Of a stretch of 64,000 nucleotides of DNA, positions 16,982 to 36,934 are shown one piece after another. Origin of the DNA: a virus. Below the pieces are notes generated by a model. It was not told where the DNA came from, searched no databases, and saw only the letters and a program-made list of their open reading frames with translations. Each line of letters starts with the position of its first letter. The first letter of the stretch is position 1. The position numbers and the translations under genes were made by a program. Location: IMG/VR virus record IMGVR_UViG_3300045120_000051, positions 1-64,000 of that record. One strand, given 5' to 3'.

Positions 16982-18430
16982 ATGCCCAATGGTAAGAAAA
17001 ACACGGCTCCTGGTACCAAACCAGCCCCCAAGGCCAAAAACGCGCCAGCGAGCCTTCCTTGGCCTGCCGAGAGGATAGAAAAACGGCTTATCGGGGATTT
17101 GACTGCCTATCCCAACAATTCCCGCATCCACAGCGACGACCAGATTGATTTAATTAGCAAATCAATTACGGAATTTGGCTGGACGACGCCAGTCCTCGTG
17201 GACGAGGGGGACGGGGTAATTTGCGGCCACGCCCGCATCCGGGCGGCCCAGAAGCTCGGATTTGCCGAGGTCCCGGTCATGGTAGCCCGCGGCTGGACTG
17301 AGGCGCAAAAGAAAGCCTACGTCATTGCCGACAATCAAATCCCGCAATCCGGCGCCTCGTGGGATTATGATTTATTGAAGGTCGAATTAAACAGTTTGGC
17401 CAAATTAGACTTTGATCTCAAGTTGATAGGATTTGATGATTTGCAGCTTGTGCAATTCATGGCCCAGCCCAATGGAAATGATCCCGACGAGGTTCCTGAG
17501 CCGCCGGTCGTCCCCGTCTCGCGCACGGGGGATTTGTGGATATTGGGCAATCATCGGCTGCTGTGTGGGGATTGCACGTCCGCATCTGACGTAGCGGCGT
17601 GTTTGGGGAAAGTTAAGCCGCATCTGATGGTTACGGACCCGCCTTATGGGGTGAGTTATTCGGCGGGGTGGCGCAACAAGGCCATGCCATATAAAAATGA
17701 TCCTTCTCGTTGGAAGGACGGCGCCGGTAGGGCTACCGGCGCCGTAACTAATGATGATCGCTCAGATTGGCGAGAAACATGGGTCTTGTTCACCGGGGAC
17801 GTTGCATATGTGTGGCATGCTGCCACTGAGGGCCATATTGTTGCGGAAAGCCTAATGGCTTGTGATTTCACAATACGTTCCCAGATTATTTGGGCTAAAA
17901 ATCAATTAGTTATTTCACGGGGGCATTATCACCCGCAGCATGAGCCCCTATTCTATGCAGTGCGCAAATCAGCAAATGGGCATTGGTGTGGGGGCCGGAC
18001 ACAGACGACTCTTTGGCAAATAAACAAGCCAGTCAAATCTGAAACGGGCCATTCAACTCAAAAACCCGTCGAATGCATGAAGCGCCCAATCGAAAACAAT
18101 TCCTCCGTAGGGCAGGCAGTCTACGACCCATTTGTTGGCTCAGGCACCACCATAATTGCCGCGGAGATGACACAACGCTCTTGTTTCGCTATAGAAATCG
18201 ACCCCATCTACATAGACGTAGCCCTCCAGCGCTGGCAGAACTTCACCAACAAGCAAGCCACCCTCGAATCCACCGGCCAGACCTTTGAACAAGTCAAGCA
18301 AGAGCGCCTAGACCATGCCAAAGAAAACCCAAAAACAAAGATTCGAGGGCGTATTCAAACAGGCAGTAGCCGAAGCCCTCGTGGAAATGCAGGACGTACA
18401 GGACAGCCAAGGCAGGACGTTCCAGGTTGA
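16982..18430 (+). CDS. ParB-domain DNA methyltransferase
   Basis: The product has 482 residues. Residues about 30-150 are a ParB/Srx-like domain (LTAYPNNSRIHSDDQIDLIS, GDGVICGHARIRAAQKLG). A class-beta MTase follows: motif IV DPPYG (219-223) and motif I DPFVGSGTT (382-390). It probably methylates adenine or cytosine N4 in DNA, protecting phage DNA or marking it. The last 38 codons overlap the TerS gene in another frame (116 bp), an unusually long overlap. The native C-terminus may end earlier. Confidence 0.85.
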   Translation: MPNGKKNTAPGTKPAPKAKNAPASLPWPAERIEKRLIGDLTAYPNNSRIHSDDQIDLISKSITEFGWTTPVLVDEGDGVICGHARIRAAQKLGFAEVPVMVARGWTEAQKKAYVIADNQIPQSGASWDYDLLKVELNSLAKLDFDLKLIGFDDLQLVQFMAQPNGNDPDEVPEPPVVPVSRTGDLWILGNHRLLCGDCTSASDVAACLGKVKPHLMVTDPPYGVSYSAGWRNKAMPYKNDPSRWKDGAGRATGAVTNDDRSDWRETWVLFTGDVAYVWHAATEGHIVAESLMACDFTIRSQIIWAKNQLVISRGHYHPQHEPLFYAVRKSANGHWCGGRTQTTLWQINKPVKSETGHSTQKPVECMKRPIENNSSVGQAVYDPFVGSGTTIIAAEMTQRSCFAIEIDPIYIDVALQRWQNFTNKQATLESTGQTFEQVKQERLDHAKENPKTKIRGRIQTGSSRSPRGNAGRTGQPRQDVPG

Positions 18431-31122: not shown

Positions 31123-32775
31123 GTGCCCAAACTCGTCATCAACATCATCACGCGCAACCGTCCCCACCTGATTGTGGAGACGGTTGAGAATTTCTTGGCT
31201 CAGATGACGACCGCGGACTGCGGCCTCATGGTTTCTGTCGATGACGATGACGTAGCGACCATCAAAGCACTGGAGCCTTACTGCGGGCGTCAACGGACCC
31301 ACATTTCAATCCAGCCTCGCGAGGACGCTATTGGCGACAAGTGGTCCCGTAGTTTCCGTTCGTTTCCCGATGCCGGCGCGCACATGCTGGCCGCGGACTA
31401 TGCGATCTGCAAGACCAAGGGCTTTGACAAGAAGATCATCGATGCAGTGGAGTTGCTGCCGGACAACATCGGGGTGATCGGCGGCAAGTTCTGCAATGCA
31501 TCGTTTTCGGCGTTCCAGGTGGTGACGCGGGGGCTGGCGAGGCGCATGGGCTTCGTCTACCCGCCCTACTTTCCCTACTGGTTTGTTGATCATTGGGTTG
31601 ACGATATCGCCCGGATGATCGGACGGCTGGTCTATGTGGACGTTGACATTGACGCCGTGTCTCGCAAGCCGCCGACGCAGGAAATGCGGGACTTGGTGTT
31701 TTGGTCTACGTTCTTTGATCTGTGCCGGGGGCGGCGGCACAAATGTGCTGAACGCATCCTTGATGATAGCGACACCAGGGTGTGGCTTAAGTCCATAATG
31801 GTCGGCAATTTCGAGATCACTGATGTCCGCTCCAAATGGATCAACGATTGCGTCCGTGCCAGTGCGGCTCATGTCGAGAACGCCATTGGCGCTGGCCCTC
31901 CCGACGAACGCTATCTGCGCTCGCTGGACGCAGCCAAGGCCATGATCCCGGAACTTGTCCAGGAAATGAAGGATGCCGGCGAGGACGTGTCGGCATGGAT
32001 ACCGCGCATGACCACGAACGTATCGCCCATCCGCAAATCAACCGGACCTCAGATGAAAAAGATTTTGCTGTTTGTCCCAGCCTTTGGGCAGATGATGTCC
32101 TGCACCACGGTGTCAACCATTATCCAGTTGATGCAGGTTTTACCGTCCAAGGCCATCGCAGGAGGATTTGGGACGCTCTCCTACCCCGACATTGCCGAGA
32201 TGAGGGACGCCGTGCTCTCCCGGTGGTACGACCACATGACGGACTACACGCATCTGCTATTTATCGATGCGGACATGGGCTTTGCCCCCGAATTGGTCCT
32301 GGACATGCTGTTGTTCGACCAGCCATTGGTCGGTGCGATCTACCGCAAGCGGATCGAGCCGCCGCAGTGGGCCGCCTCAGGGAGCGGAGGGCCTACGACA
32401 GCTAGGACGGGAGATTTTATTGAGGTCGATGGCCTCGGCATGGGTGTCTGCCTTATCCGCCGTGATGTGGTGACAACCATGCTGGAAAAGATGCCAGAAT
32501 TGTCTGACGACAAGATCGCCATGCTGTCGATCCGGGACCTCATGGACCCTGCGGCAACGCGGATTATTAGGGCATTTGACCCGATTCAGGGTCCGTCTGG
32601 TCGTGTGTCGGAAGACCTCTCTTTCTGCCAGCGGTGGCGTGAGTGTGGTGGAACCGTTTGGGGTGCGATTGGGCATTCTGTTTCGCATGTTGGAATGTAT
32701 GATTTTTGCGGGAGGTACGCGGATGTGGCAGATAAAGCCCCGATAGTGCCGCCCGCGTTGCAAGCTGCTGAGTGA
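31123..32775 (+). CDS. Two-domain GT-A-type glycosyltransferase
   Basis: The product has 550 residues. The N-terminal half (INIITRNRPHLIVETVENFL, GLMVSVDDDD) and the C-terminal half (ILLFVPAFGQMMSCTTVSTI, HLLFIDADMGFAPELVLDML) both look like GT-A glycosyltransferase folds with DxD-like acidic motifs. Tandem glycosyltransferases occur in phages that decorate DNA or virion proteins. It heads a metabolic cassette and is followed by the GGYNN module. GTG start. Confidence 0.8.
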   Translation: MPKLVINIITRNRPHLIVETVENFLAQMTTADCGLMVSVDDDDVATIKALEPYCGRQRTHISIQPREDAIGDKWSRSFRSFPDAGAHMLAADYAICKTKGFDKKIIDAVELLPDNIGVIGGKFCNASFSAFQVVTRGLARRMGFVYPPYFPYWFVDHWVDDIARMIGRLVYVDVDIDAVSRKPPTQEMRDLVFWSTFFDLCRGRRHKCAERILDDSDTRVWLKSIMVGNFEITDVRSKWINDCVRASAAHVENAIGAGPPDERYLRSLDAAKAMIPELVQEMKDAGEDVSAWIPRMTTNVSPIRKSTGPQMKKILLFVPAFGQMMSCTTVSTIIQLMQVLPSKAIAGGFGTLSYPDIAEMRDAVLSRWYDHMTDYTHLLFIDADMGFAPELVLDMLLFDQPLVGAIYRKRIEPPQWAASGSGGPTTARTGDFIEVDGLGMGVCLIRRDVVTTMLEKMPELSDDKIAMLSIRDLMDPAATRIIRAFDPIQGPSGRVSEDLSFCQRWRECGGTVWGAIGHSVSHVGMYDFCGRYADVADKAPIVPPALQAAE

Positions 32776-32795: not shown

Positions 32796-32855
32796 GGTAA
32801 GGCTCGCCTAGGTGGGGTCCGGCACGGTTGGGCGAGGCATGGTATGGCGAGGTTG
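32796..32855 (+). repeat. GGYNN pentamer array 1a
   Basis: Twelve units in perfect 5-bp phase; eleven start GG and one GC, and all twelve have a pyrimidine at position 3. It starts 20 bp after the glycosyltransferase stop. The two last bases of each unit vary. Confidence 0.8.
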
Positions 32856-32950
32856 CTTGACGTGACCTTGAATTGATGATTGGCTATCCAAATCGCGGCG
32901 ATCAACGCGATTCGAAACGCGGCACCATCGACAACTTCCCCGTCGTCCGG

Positions 32951-32970
32951 TGTCGCTGAAAAGTGACCCC
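32951..32970. mobile_element. IS21-end-like remnant
   Basis: TGTCGCTGAAAAGTGACCCC resembles terminal sequences of IS21-family elements. No transposase gene or opposite end is nearby. Recognition is from memory. Confidence 0.25.
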
Positions 32971-33021
32971 TGATTCCGCGTTTCCGGGCTTGATCGGCCG
33001 GGCGCGGGGGAGACCGTCTGC

Positions 33022-33087
33022 GGCGCGGCTTGGCATGTCATGGTGCGTGTCCGGTCGGGTAAGATTAGGCTTGGTATGGCAGGGTCT
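33022..33087 (+). repeat. GGYNN pentamer array 1b
   Basis: Thirteen units with one 1-bp slip at 33052-33053; ten start GG and twelve have a pyrimidine third. The last unit runs into the hairpin that holds the next gene's SD. A fuzzier stretch precedes it from 32996. Confidence 0.7.
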
Positions 33088-33115: not shown

Positions 33116-33730
33116 ATGACTAAGACCTCAGCTAAGGTTGTTCATATCAGTGAACCGACTGATGGTGGCAATGAGACAATCGAACACTCAGAGCCTTACG
33201 CCGTCGCCGTAACTGTCGAAGGCTCCGCCGATTTTCTGTTTCATCGATGGAATCCGGAAGCCGTCGATGAGAAGGCCAAAGCCGCGAAGAACTCGAAGGG
33301 CAAAAAAACCGATAACATCGAGAGTTACGTTTATCGGCTTGACAACGGTGAACTCGCCATCCCCGGCGAATATATGCGGGGTAGTATCATCAATGCCGCC
33401 AAGTTCCGGCAAGACCCACGTTCACCGCGCAAGTCTGCGGCCGATTTGTTCAAGGCTGCAATCGTCGTCACGACGCCGCTTGCAGCGCTTGGCGTGAGTG
33501 ATTGGGACTATCTCGACAAGCGCCGCGCGATGGTCCAACGGCAGGGCATCAACCGCGTGCGGCCGGCAATGCGCGCCGGCTGGACGTGCGAGTTCCATCT
33601 GTTGGTGATGCTGCCGGAATACGTTGATCGCGGCGCGTTGCGCGAGACAATCGAAAGCGCGGGGCGGCTCATCGGCCTTGGTGATTTCCGGCCGACATTT
33701 GGCCGGTTTGGCATCGTCAACTTCGAATAA
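33116..33730 (+). CDS. RAMP-like protein flanked by GGYNN arrays
   Basis: The product has 204 residues. After a disordered start come AVAVTVEGSADFLFHRW (strand, about 29-45), a Lys-rich insert, ELAIPGEYMRGSIINAAKF (about 79-97), a Lys/Arg-rich helix (RQDPRSPRKSAADLFKAAIV), CEFHLLVMLPEYV (about 159-171) and IGLGDFRPTFGRFGIVNFE (about 186-204). The iPGxxxRG loop and the final Gly-rich segment after a helix resemble RAMP-fold proteins such as Cas7/Cas5. This is a pattern match, not proof. Its basic surface, the flanking arrays and its hidden SD suggest an RNA-binding protein with autoregulation. It may be a known but uncharacterised rhizobial-phage family. Confidence 0.65.
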   Translation: MTKTSAKVVHISEPTDGGNETIEHSEPYAVAVTVEGSADFLFHRWNPEAVDEKAKAAKNSKGKKTDNIESYVYRLDNGELAIPGEYMRGSIINAAKFRQDPRSPRKSAADLFKAAIVVTTPLAALGVSDWDYLDKRRAMVQRQGINRVRPAMRAGWTCEFHLLVMLPEYVDRGALRETIESAGRLIGLGDFRPTFGRFGIVNFE

Positions 33731-33738
33731 GGAGATCT

Positions 33739-33986
33739 GGTCGGGTGAGGCTGGGTGTGGCGAGGTCGGCCCTGGTCCGGCGTGGCATGGTGAGGCTAGG
33801 TTTGGTGAGGACGGGCGCGGCATGGCGCGGCAGGGCTAGGTCTGGCAAGGCTAGGTATGGTGAGGTACGGGCCGAAGGGCCGGTGTGGTACGGTCGGGTT
33901 CGGTGAGGCAAGGCTGGCTTCGGTTCGGTAGGCTCTGGTATGCTATGGTAAGGTGGGGCGAGATGGGGCTTGCTGAGGTGAGGATT
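33739..33986 (+). repeat. GGYNN pentamer array 2
   Basis: Counted by hand: 27 units in phase from 33739 to 33873 (26 start GG), a 3-bp slip over a GGCC-GAAG-GGCC hairpin, then 21 units to 33986 (16 GG, others GC or GA). 45 of 48 have a pyrimidine at position 3. Positions 4 and 5 vary freely. It ends in the SD of the next gene. No plus-strand coding sense is evident. Confidence 0.85.
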
Positions 33987-33991
33987 TAATC

Positions 33992-35377
33992 TTGAGGACT
34001 GTTTTATCACATGGTGTGTTTGATCCAATGCACATTGGGCATGTATTGCATTTGATCGAGGCACGGGCACAAGGCGACAGGCTTGTCGTAAGCGTTACAG
34101 CCGATGAGTTTGTTGCTAAAGGTCCAGATAGGCCCATCTTTAAGGGGGCTGAACGCGCGCAGGCATTGCGGGCTTTAAGTTGCGTTGATGACGTGATCAT
34201 TAGTGAGTCTTATGATGCTGTCGATGTAATCAACAAGGTTAGGCCAAATCTTTTTGTTAAGGGTGTCGATTATAAAGATGTAAACGATGCTGCATTACAG
34301 CGAGAAATAGCCGCTGTGGAGGCTCACGGAGGTCGTTTCTATACCACGCATTCTGATAGATGGTCATCGTCCCGCATTGTAAACGGCGCGAGATTTGATG
34401 ATGAAGCGATGGCTTATCTTGAGGGCGCCAGGGCGCGAGGGTTTTCTGACCGGATTTTGGCGGCATTCGAACGTGCAGACAAGCTGAAAATCGCGTTCGT
34501 GGGAGAAACGATCATTGACCGCTACCACTACGTTTCCCCGCTGGGGAAGCCGGTGAAGGAATTCTGCCTTGCCACGGTCGAGGCCAAGGAATCGGAGGAG
34601 TTCCTAGGCGGCGTCATTGCGGCCAGCAAACACGCGGAATGGCCCCATGTGAACGTGGTGACCAGCGGTCAGTTCATCCGCAAGACGCGGTATGTGGACG
34701 TGGCGTTTAACCGGAAGCTGTTCGAGGTCTATTCTGAGCGCGAGATTGAGTTGAACGAAAAGCAGAGGACGGCGTTCCGCAGTGATCTAGTCGATGCTTT
34801 GAAGGCGGTTGATGCTGTTGTCGTGCTGGATTTTGGGCATGGACTCCTAACATCCGAAGAGCGTAGCTTCATTAGATCGGCTGGGTTCAGGAAGACAAAA
34901 AAGAAACAAAAGCCCATATTTACTGCCATTAACTCTCAATCCAACACTGCCAATTTTGGGTTTAATCCAGTTACGTTGCATCCTGGCGCAAATTTTGTCT
35001 GTGTTGACGATCCAGAGGCGAGGCTTGCTACCGGGATGCAGAATGATCCAATGGGCGACGTTCTAACGTGCCTATCCGACAAGATGTGCTGTTACCAGTT
35101 CATTGTCACGCACGGTCGGAATGGATGTACCTCCTTCACGAGATACAAGAATCCAGCCGTTCACATCCCCGCCTTCGCCACCAACGGCATTGACACCATG
35201 GGGGCGGGAGACGCATTTCTGGCAGTGACAGCGCCGCTTGTTGCCGCGGGGCTTGGGCTGGAAGAGGCAGGCTTTGTGGGCAACGTGGCCGGCGCCATCA
35301 AGGTTGGCATCCTCGGCCATCGTCGCCATGTTGGTCGGCAGGAACTTATCCAGAGCGTGGAGGCGCTGCTTAAATGA
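33992..35377 (+). CDS. Nucleotidyltransferase-sugar kinase fusion (HldE-like, reversed order)
   Basis: The product has 461 residues. Residues 1-130 are a cytidylyltransferase-type domain with GVFDPMHIGH (HIGH at 14-17) and FVKGVDYKDV. Residues about 155-461 are a PfkB/ribokinase domain with FVGETIIDRYHYVS and the catalytic GAGDAF at about 404-409. HldE of heptose synthesis has the same two activities in the opposite order. It would make an NDP-sugar from a phosphorylated sugar. TTG start with SD GAGGTGAGG formed by the last array units. Confidence 0.85.
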   Translation: MRTVLSHGVFDPMHIGHVLHLIEARAQGDRLVVSVTADEFVAKGPDRPIFKGAERAQALRALSCVDDVIISESYDAVDVINKVRPNLFVKGVDYKDVNDAALQREIAAVEAHGGRFYTTHSDRWSSSRIVNGARFDDEAMAYLEGARARGFSDRILAAFERADKLKIAFVGETIIDRYHYVSPLGKPVKEFCLATVEAKESEEFLGGVIAASKHAEWPHVNVVTSGQFIRKTRYVDVAFNRKLFEVYSEREIELNEKQRTAFRSDLVDALKAVDAVVVLDFGHGLLTSEERSFIRSAGFRKTKKKQKPIFTAINSQSNTANFGFNPVTLHPGANFVCVDDPEARLATGMQNDPMGDVLTCLSDKMCCYQFIVTHGRNGCTSFTRYKNPAVHIPAFATNGIDTMGAGDAFLAVTAPLVAAGLGLEEAGFVGNVAGAIKVGILGHRRHVGRQELIQSVEALLK

Positions 35378-35559: not shown

Positions 35560-35774
35560 CCGACCTCCCCCCTCTCCACGTCATCGTCAAGTTCGGGAAG
35601 GATATCCCGCTATCCATCCAAGGGCCGGCGTTGCTGGAGATGGAGCGGCATCTGCGCAAGCTGGCGGCGGAGACGGTGTGCGGGCCCCTGTGGATTGAAG
35701 TCTTTAAGGAGGCCAAGGGGGATGATAGTAAGTTGCGCAGCGCCATGACCGAAAAGCAAAGATCAAAACTATGA
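35556..35774 (+). CDS. 72-aa hypothetical protein
   Basis: The product (MTDLPPLHVIVKFGKDIPLS start) has a helix (LLEMERHLRKLAAETVCG). ATGA-coupled to the radical SAM gene. Function unknown. Confidence 0.6.
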   Translation: MTDLPPLHVIVKFGKDIPLSIQGPALLEMERHLRKLAAETVCGPLWIEVFKEAKGDDSKLRSAMTEKQRSKL

Positions 35775-36934
35775 CCTCGCCCATGCCCGATTTTGTCGAT
35801 CACGTTCTCGGCGTTGCTCCCGATTCCCCGTCCGTTCACAATCTTCAATTGGATGGGACAAAAATAGCTTGGTATCGAGATCGCGTTGAGGCATGGGCTC
35901 GGGGCGAGCGCATCGCTCCGATCACGATGGACGTGGCCTGGACTCGCAAGTGCCAAGCAGCGTGCGGATTCTGCTATGCGAGTCTACAGTCCAGTGAAGG
36001 CGGCATCGATGTAACCCGGCAGGAAGCATTCGACTTCTTGGAAGACGCCGCAGCCATCGGCGTCAAGGGCGTCAGCCTCATAAGCGACGGGGAAAGCACT
36101 GGCGTCCCCTACTATGCCGAATCGATCAAGTACGGTGCGTCCCTTGGTCTGCAAATGGGGATCAGTTCAAACGGGGTGACGCTCACCCGAGATGTTCTGG
36201 AGGACATCCTGCCGTCGCTGAGTTACCTCCGGTACAATTTCAGCGGTGGCAAACGCAAGCGTTACGCTGAGATCATGGGGTTGAAGCAGATTTGGTTTGA
36301 CCGCGTGGTGTCAAGCGTCAAGACCTCGATGGAGATCAAACGGCGCGACAACCTCCCTTGCACGGTCAACATGCAATTTGTCGTCCGTCCTGTAGACGGG
36401 GACCAGATTGTACCGTTTGCTAAACTCGCCGCCGAAATCCGCCCTGATTACGGAATCCTGAAGCACTGTTCCGATAGCTCGACCAATGACCTCGGTGTGG
36501 ATTACCGAAAGTACAGCGAATTATTCCCGTTGTTTCAGGAGGCCGAAGGCTACTCGGACAAGGATTTTCGCATTGCGGTCAAGTGGTCGCGTATCCAGGA
36601 CGAGGGCAAGCGAGATTACCAACGATGCTATGGGCCTCCGTTCATCCTGCAAATGTCCGGCAATGGCTTGATTGCTCCTTGCGGGCAGAAGTTCAATTCC
36701 AAGTACCAGAAATTCCACATGGGCCGGTTGTCGGAGATGCGTTTCCGGGACATCTTCAAGAGTGACCGCTACTGGGACATCATCAACTATCTCGCCAGCG
36801 AGGACTTCGACGCGCAGAAGGATTGCGGCGAGAACTGCTTGCAGACAAACAGCAACTCGTGGCTGAATCGCTATGTGAACGGGCAAGCGCAGTTTGCGAC
36901 AACGCCCCCACCCCCGCAGATCGGTTTTCTGTGA
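35771..36934 (+). CDS. Radical SAM enzyme with SPASM-like C-terminus
   Basis: The product has 387 residues. CQAACGFC (C61, C65, C68) is the radical SAM iron-sulfur motif; GVKGVSLISDGESTG and MGISSNGVTLT continue the barrel. C-terminal cysteines (CYGPP at about 286, APCGQ at about 304, CGENCLQTN at about 353) suggest an auxiliary cluster. It belongs to the sugar cassette, so a sugar epimerase or dehydratase role is possible; this is inference. Confidence 0.85.
   Translation: MTSPMPDFVDHVLGVAPDSPSVHNLQLDGTKIAWYRDRVEAWARGERIAPITMDVAWTRKCQAACGFCYASLQSSEGGIDVTRQEAFDFLEDAAAIGVKGVSLISDGESTGVPYYAESIKYGASLGLQMGISSNGVTLTRDVLEDILPSLSYLRYNFSGGKRKRYAEIMGLKQIWFDRVVSSVKTSMEIKRRDNLPCTVNMQFVVRPVDGDQIVPFAKLAAEIRPDYGILKHCSDSSTNDLGVDYRKYSELFPLFQEAEGYSDKDFRIAVKWSRIQDEGKRDYQRCYGPPFILQMSGNGLIAPCGQKFNSKYQKFHMGRLSEMRFRDIFKSDRYWDIINYLASEDFDAQKDCGENCLQTNSNSWLNRYVNGQAQFATTPPPPQIGFL

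Follow-up and report, generated by a model that had tools for sequence, protein, structure and literature searches.

The closest described counterpart of the locus reported here is VIPR (Viral Interference Programmable Repeat), presented in a preprint dated April 2026 (PMC13142463). According to the text of the preprint, VIPR combines a RAMP protein with guide RNAs (vrRNAs) in which GGY and NN alternate. The NN pairs read double-stranded DNA, skipping one base between pairs, and the system silences genes and is directed against competing phages. For SUSP1 the same text shows by experiment a single-protein RNA-binding system with an array transcript and anti-phage action; RNA binding by Vipr is shown for SUSP1 and also for P. 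fulva, DNA binding and repression are shown for SUSP1, and targeting in SUSP1 can be programmed by changing the NN only (PMC13142463). Some vrRNAs of the P. fulva clade are described there as aiming at other VIPR systems, and the seven VIPR types of the main text have six vap genes between them, so that a type devoid of vap may already be known (PMC13142463). No RNA-guided DNA recognition with a noncontiguous code had been described before VIPR, which has also been proposed as a CRISPR ancestor, and the evidence so far consists of one preprint and two tested systems.

We analyzed a stretch of 64,000 nucleotides (the window) from an uncultivated phage and conclude, with a probability of about 0.92, that it carries a VIPR system of a tailed phage, consisting of Vipr and GGYNN guide RNAs directed against related competitors. 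What this contributes is a distant VIPR clade, found in uncultivated phages, a test of the one-base-skip code that is independent of laboratory data, and predicted VIPR-against-VIPR targeting in this clade. Targeting of one VIPR system by another was already known from the P. fulva examples in PMC13142463, and its extension to the clade of the window is the contribution of this work. The guide arrays found inside the gene and a covarying leader RNA, both described below, may also be new.

The virus record to which the window belongs is 69,980 bases long and encodes terminase, portal, virion and ejection proteins, and VIPR is "carried mainly by viruses and proviruses". The vipr gene lies at 33116-33730 on the plus strand, where the earlier note had placed it, and is an intact open reading frame from ATG to TAA, preceded by a ribosome-binding-like segment, AGGAGAGGA, and encoding a protein of 204 amino acids. 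That the gene is real follows from its 38 relatives in IMG/VR and from a match (E 4e-16) to PHROG_4652, a family of unknown function. The IPGEYMRGSI and GLGDFRPTFGRFG stretches are both present in the protein and fall within well conserved parts of the family. Neither Pfam (no significant match) nor PADLOC (no match) recognised the protein. Beside the locus are two genes that are probably metabolic cargo, one at 33992-35377 for a cytidylyltransferase and PfkB-kinase protein resembling heptose-phosphate kinase/adenylyltransferase, and one at 35771-36934 for a radical SAM/SPASM-like protein. Elsewhere in the window, at 16982-18430, a single phage protein joins a ParB-like domain to a DNA methyltransferase domain.

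The earlier note had proposed a RAMP/Cas7-like protein on the strength of the two stretches named above. An AlphaFold model built with 26 relatives (pLDDT 84, pTM 0.77) was compared with PDB structures using Foldseek, and the best matches listed were Csm3, type VII Cas7, gRAMP/Cas7-11 and Cmr subunits (E 5e-7 to about 1e-6, TM about 0.5), all of them Cas7-family RAMP subunits or fusions with 10-15% identity. The prediction that the structure would be of the RAMP type thus withstood the comparison on which it could have failed, its best listed matches being Csm3/Cas7-family subunits of type III and type VII complexes, and in the model the window protein and Csm3/Cas7 have a fold in common that is remote in detail. 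The Foldseek library predates PDB 36pp, so that this is a comparison with older RAMP structures. A family profile search, which the earlier note had also suggested, matched PDB 36pp, "SUSP1 Vipr protein", with an E-value of 5.7e-11, and in a single-sequence comparison with Vipr the 70 residues at the C terminus matched (E 4e-6). A tblastn search with the window gene led to Felixounavirus VpaE1 (locus L043), whose protein and SUSP1 Vipr are nearly identical across 195 amino acids (E 2e-127). PHROG_4652, the family matched by the window protein and by its relatives, has no function in PHROGs and can be read, at least in part, as Vipr.

As the earlier note had stated, arrays of pentamers lie on both sides of the gene, upstream at 32796-33087 and downstream at 33739-33986, all on the plus strand. 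The first upstream array, W_up1 (32796-32855), has 12 GGYNN units and decodes to the target AAxTCxTAxGGxCCxACxTGxGAxATxATxGAxTG. The second, W_up2 (33022-33087), occupies the gap between the leader RNA and the start codon and consists of 6 units, one extra base and 7 units, i.e. 7 units in phase at 33053-33087 or 13 units from 33022 when a one-base slip is allowed. Downstream are W_dn1 (33739-33873), with 27 units and ending in GGTAC GGGCC, and the more degenerate W_dn2 (33877-33986), with 22 units and ending in GGTGA GGATT. The opposite strand around the gene has no GGYNN array. The top array score in the window was 48, and 50 first-order Markov replicates gave a mean of 0.2 segments and a maximum score of 8.5; the arrays beside the gene far exceed chance. 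Neither tandem-repeat calls nor Rfam accounted for the window arrays. In the 2143 units counted in the window and its relatives, the positions are G (96%), G (85%) and a pyrimidine (92%), followed by two near-uniform positions. No earlier description of the array motif, or of pentanucleotide repeats in phages like Felix O1, came up in text searches.

A scan of IMG/VR led to the identification of 38 relatives of the window protein with 50-81% identity, and same-strand GGYNN arrays flank the gene in 37 of them, the exception, L030, having a degenerate array. Tblastn against named phages gave one close match, DSL-LC04 (59%), and weak matches in Pseudomonas phages LESphi2 and Medea1, in many Felixounaviruses and in Gordonia phage MakoManhole; in all five distant named-phage records inspected (coliphage VpaE1, Pseudomonas, Gordonia and others) arrays adjoin the gene on its own strand. 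The question raised by the earlier note, whether homologues always have adjacent arrays, can consequently be answered with nearly always. We also ran the reverse search, querying IMG/VR with the array alone (11 units plus GGY), and obtained at least 120 stretches. Among the 120 listed, a vipr gene was detected by profile in 88, and vipr and array share the strand in 57 of the 58 listed stretches with a recorded position, at a median distance of 191 bases. When 38 whole phage records were scanned, exact 7-unit arrays occurred in 24, each time on one strand only. In the other 32 listed stretches (e.g. L067, L073 and L075) long GGYNN arrays are present and no vipr was detected in the stretch fetched; these may be truncated contigs, loci of a more divergent Vipr type, or coding repeats.

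To read the arrays we decoded each of them and matched it at 0, 1, 2 and 3 skipped bases against the sequences gathered, arrays excluded. In this first decoding, 8 or more of 9 units matched 9, 97, 3 and 0 times at the four skips respectively, and the skip-1 matches concentrate in vipr genes of other phages. A second decoding, for which redundancy was removed to leave 139 vipr genes and 468 arrays and only non-self vipr matches were counted, gave 5, 100, 2 and 12 matches at skips 0, 1, 2 and 3, compared with 1-3 for shuffled guides at skip 1. The 12 matches at skip 3 were set aside as probably an array meeting an in-gene array, because both have a five-base period. Seven convincing guides against rival vipr genes resulted, two of which, the in-gene arrays of L020 and L038, are near-copies. 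In all seven the skipped base falls on codon position 3 (wobble), and 9-12 units match the non-self vipr as against 4-7 in the carrier's own vipr. None of 400 shuffles per guide reached the observed score, except for the L038 in-gene guide, where one of 400 did. The match of an L140 guide to L026 (8/9, with the skip at codon position 2), whose score is reached by 1/400 shuffles, was rejected as chance. Taken at the level of sequence, these results support the one-base-skip code for the related phages and for one guide of the window, W_up1.

For one of these pairs the window is on the receiving side. The guide upstream of vipr in the rival phage L009, which occupies the same slot as W_up2, matches the window vipr gene on the minus strand at 33220-33261 in 11 of 14 units, 10 of them in a row, as against 6 of 14 in L009's own vipr, and the window vipr is thus a predicted target of L009. 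Among the window's own guides, W_up1 has a self near-match in the neighbour gene 31123-32775, which belongs to a glycosyltransferase-like PHROG; at 32680-32705 on the minus strand 7 of 12 units match, antisense and with the skip at the wobble position. At the homologous site of four independent homologues W_up1 matches 7, 6, 6 and 7 units, and the match summed over the five homologues is 33, a value reached by none of 3000 shuffled guides (best shuffle 30). The simplest reading of this pattern is that W_up1 is aimed at a rival allele of the 31123-32775 gene that combines the partial matches, [HQ]S[IM][IM]SHVGPY[DE]F, with 32680-32705 as the position homologous to the inferred target; no such allele was present in the databases searched. 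Exact IMG/VR scans with decoded cores of 8-9 units gave no target for W_dn1 or W_dn2. The matches that five decoded window-array cores of 8-9 units did give in IMG/VR all failed outside the core and were rejected as chance, including 13 matches to one decoded core that come from a single sequence family.

We propose that the gene at 33116-33730 would make Vipr, a small RAMP protein, and that the flanking arrays would be transcribed from the vipr strand into vrRNAs, each coated by Vipr subunits at one per pentamer. The GGY triplets would be held by the protein and the NN dinucleotides would pair with double-stranded DNA, read as NNxNNxNNx; this reading is shown for SUSP1 in PMC13142463 and is supported here by the sequence matches. 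Binding would repress the target gene, the targets being genes of competing, related phages and, in the clade of the window, probably including the rival vipr. The guides appear to be tuned, with the carrier's own vipr a poor match and the skipped base on the wobble position of codons. This outlines a concrete arms race of guides against rival vipr genes, self avoidance and wobble-aligned skips, and provides guide-target pairs that can be tested, such as the L009 guide and the window vipr gene. The earlier note is right on the fold and close on the function. Its single-protein RNA-binding system with the array as transcript corresponds to what the text of PMC13142463 shows for the SUSP1 homologue and would apply here by homology, and its suggestion of defence against other phages agrees with the experiments reported there and with the rival vipr targets predicted here. 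Missing from it is that the array would be more than a scaffold, its NN pairs behaving as a guide read with one skip.

The regular five-base period with its conserved triplet, and the strand that protein and array share throughout, would equally suit a RAMP-fold protein that coats the RNA of its own array for regulation or as a sponge, the NN being meaningless spacers. TRAP, which binds regularly spaced triplets, would be the model. We consider this improbable because the NN, decoded with one skip, match rival vipr genes far above shuffles and other skips and are consequently not meaningless. Even less credit is due to the idea that the arrays came to lie beside the gene by accident, as low-complexity repeats that are selfish or arose by slippage. 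Array length does vary strongly among relatives (up to 116 units, in L011) and arrays occur even inside the gene, yet the units are not copies of one another, with GGY kept and NN near-uniform, whole records have arrays on the vipr strand only, their linkage to the gene spans phages of unrelated hosts, and the decoded targets are specific. The decoding statistics contradict an accident.

The similarity to Csm3/Cas7 raises a further explanation, in which the gene is a Cas7 or Cas5 of a class 1 CRISPR-Cas system, captured or degenerate, and accompanied by a decayed CRISPR array. The window protein shares with Cas7/Csm3 of type III-A and type VII CRISPR-Cas the RAMP fold, a conserved glycine-containing C-terminal segment and, presumably, the coating of a guide RNA. 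It differs from them in its 10-15% identity to Cas7-family subunits, in the lack of cas genes and of a CRISPR array or any array of identical repeats at the locus, in the lack of conserved neighbour genes and in a period of five bases, not six, in its arrays. Set against that low identity, the match to the SUSP1 Vipr profile is significant, and together with the arrays it refutes this explanation, to which we give very little weight.

The locus can be compared with the SUSP1 system (type II; PDB 36pp), as far as the text of PMC13142463 describes it. Both have a homologous, phage-borne, RAMP-fold Vipr, GGY/NN arrays on the strand of the gene in neighbouring noncoding DNA, one-base-skip decoding, and targets in competing phages that include other VIPR systems. 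In sequence the window protein is remote from SUSP1 Vipr, sharing 34% with the VpaE1 protein, nearly identical to SUSP1 Vipr, over the C-terminal third. Unlike the guides of 9-16 units in that text, the downstream window arrays have 27 and 22 units, are partly contiguous and have no evident constant 3' tail. Arrays of this clade can be long and contiguous. VIPR repeats are followed by a structured 3' tail; the 3' ends compared here differ (GGGNN plus hairpin; GGATA/GGATT plus T-rich; others), and no tail common to them was found. The window clade also differs from SUSP1 as described in guides aimed at rival vipr genes, in arrays within the vipr frame of some relatives and in having no vap1 partner. 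No vap partner gene was found in the window clade, and in the loci compared nothing within 4.5 kb is conserved except vipr and open reading frames overlapping the gene or the arrays. All vap1-like open reading frames lie outside the 53-tip clade to which the window belongs (clade support 0.71), which places the window clade outside type II. An Rfam search of the window locus and of 11 related loci found no hammerhead, so that the locus lacks the trait of the VIPR type in which hammerheads are interspersed between guides.

Upstream of vipr, at 32892-33015 on the plus strand, is a conserved structured leader RNA of about 125 bases, which is kept in at least eight loci (the window, L009, L001, L003, L035, L012, L021 and L038) and matches no Rfam family. 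Its consensus structure (alignment A3) has compensatory changes in 12 of 33 pairs, and both sides of a pair are changed in 24 cells, as against 8.3 in shuffles and 1-4 with slid partners. The 3' strand of the structure includes a ribosome-binding-like segment, GGGGGAGA, and carries the likely vipr ribosome-binding segment in L003, L012, L035 and L038. This location suggests that the leader exerts translational control of vipr, possibly as an autoregulatory leader.

In eight relatives (L012-L014, L019-L021, L037 and L038) an array lies within the vipr frame at about +377 in the gene, shorter in L013 and L014, at a position that corresponds to a loop between strands in the AlphaFold model. As decoded, the in-gene arrays of L020 and L038 form a guide that would be directed at the KGSKAKKTD region in the vipr genes of rivals, a weaker inference than for the other guides because this region is lysine-rich. 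A tentative picture, to which we give somewhat short of even odds, is a stand-alone VIPR clade devoid of vap, with VIPR against VIPR as a main guide use. Its stored guides would be directed against conserved motifs of rival vipr genes and tuned to spare self, some arrays would lie in the carrier's own vipr frame, where the same bases would serve as protein loop and as anti-vipr guide, and the structured leader would control vipr translation.

Some genome assemblies hold more than one vipr homologue. Two were found in the assembly of the Stenomitos rutilans MAG (L183 and L184) and two in that of the Phycisphaerae HBSAPP03 MAG (L187 and L194), and Phycisphaerae MAGs hold many other vipr homologue matches. 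Finally, 21 predicted tRNA genes are densely clustered beside the VIPR locus of L009 (L009 7841-10554).
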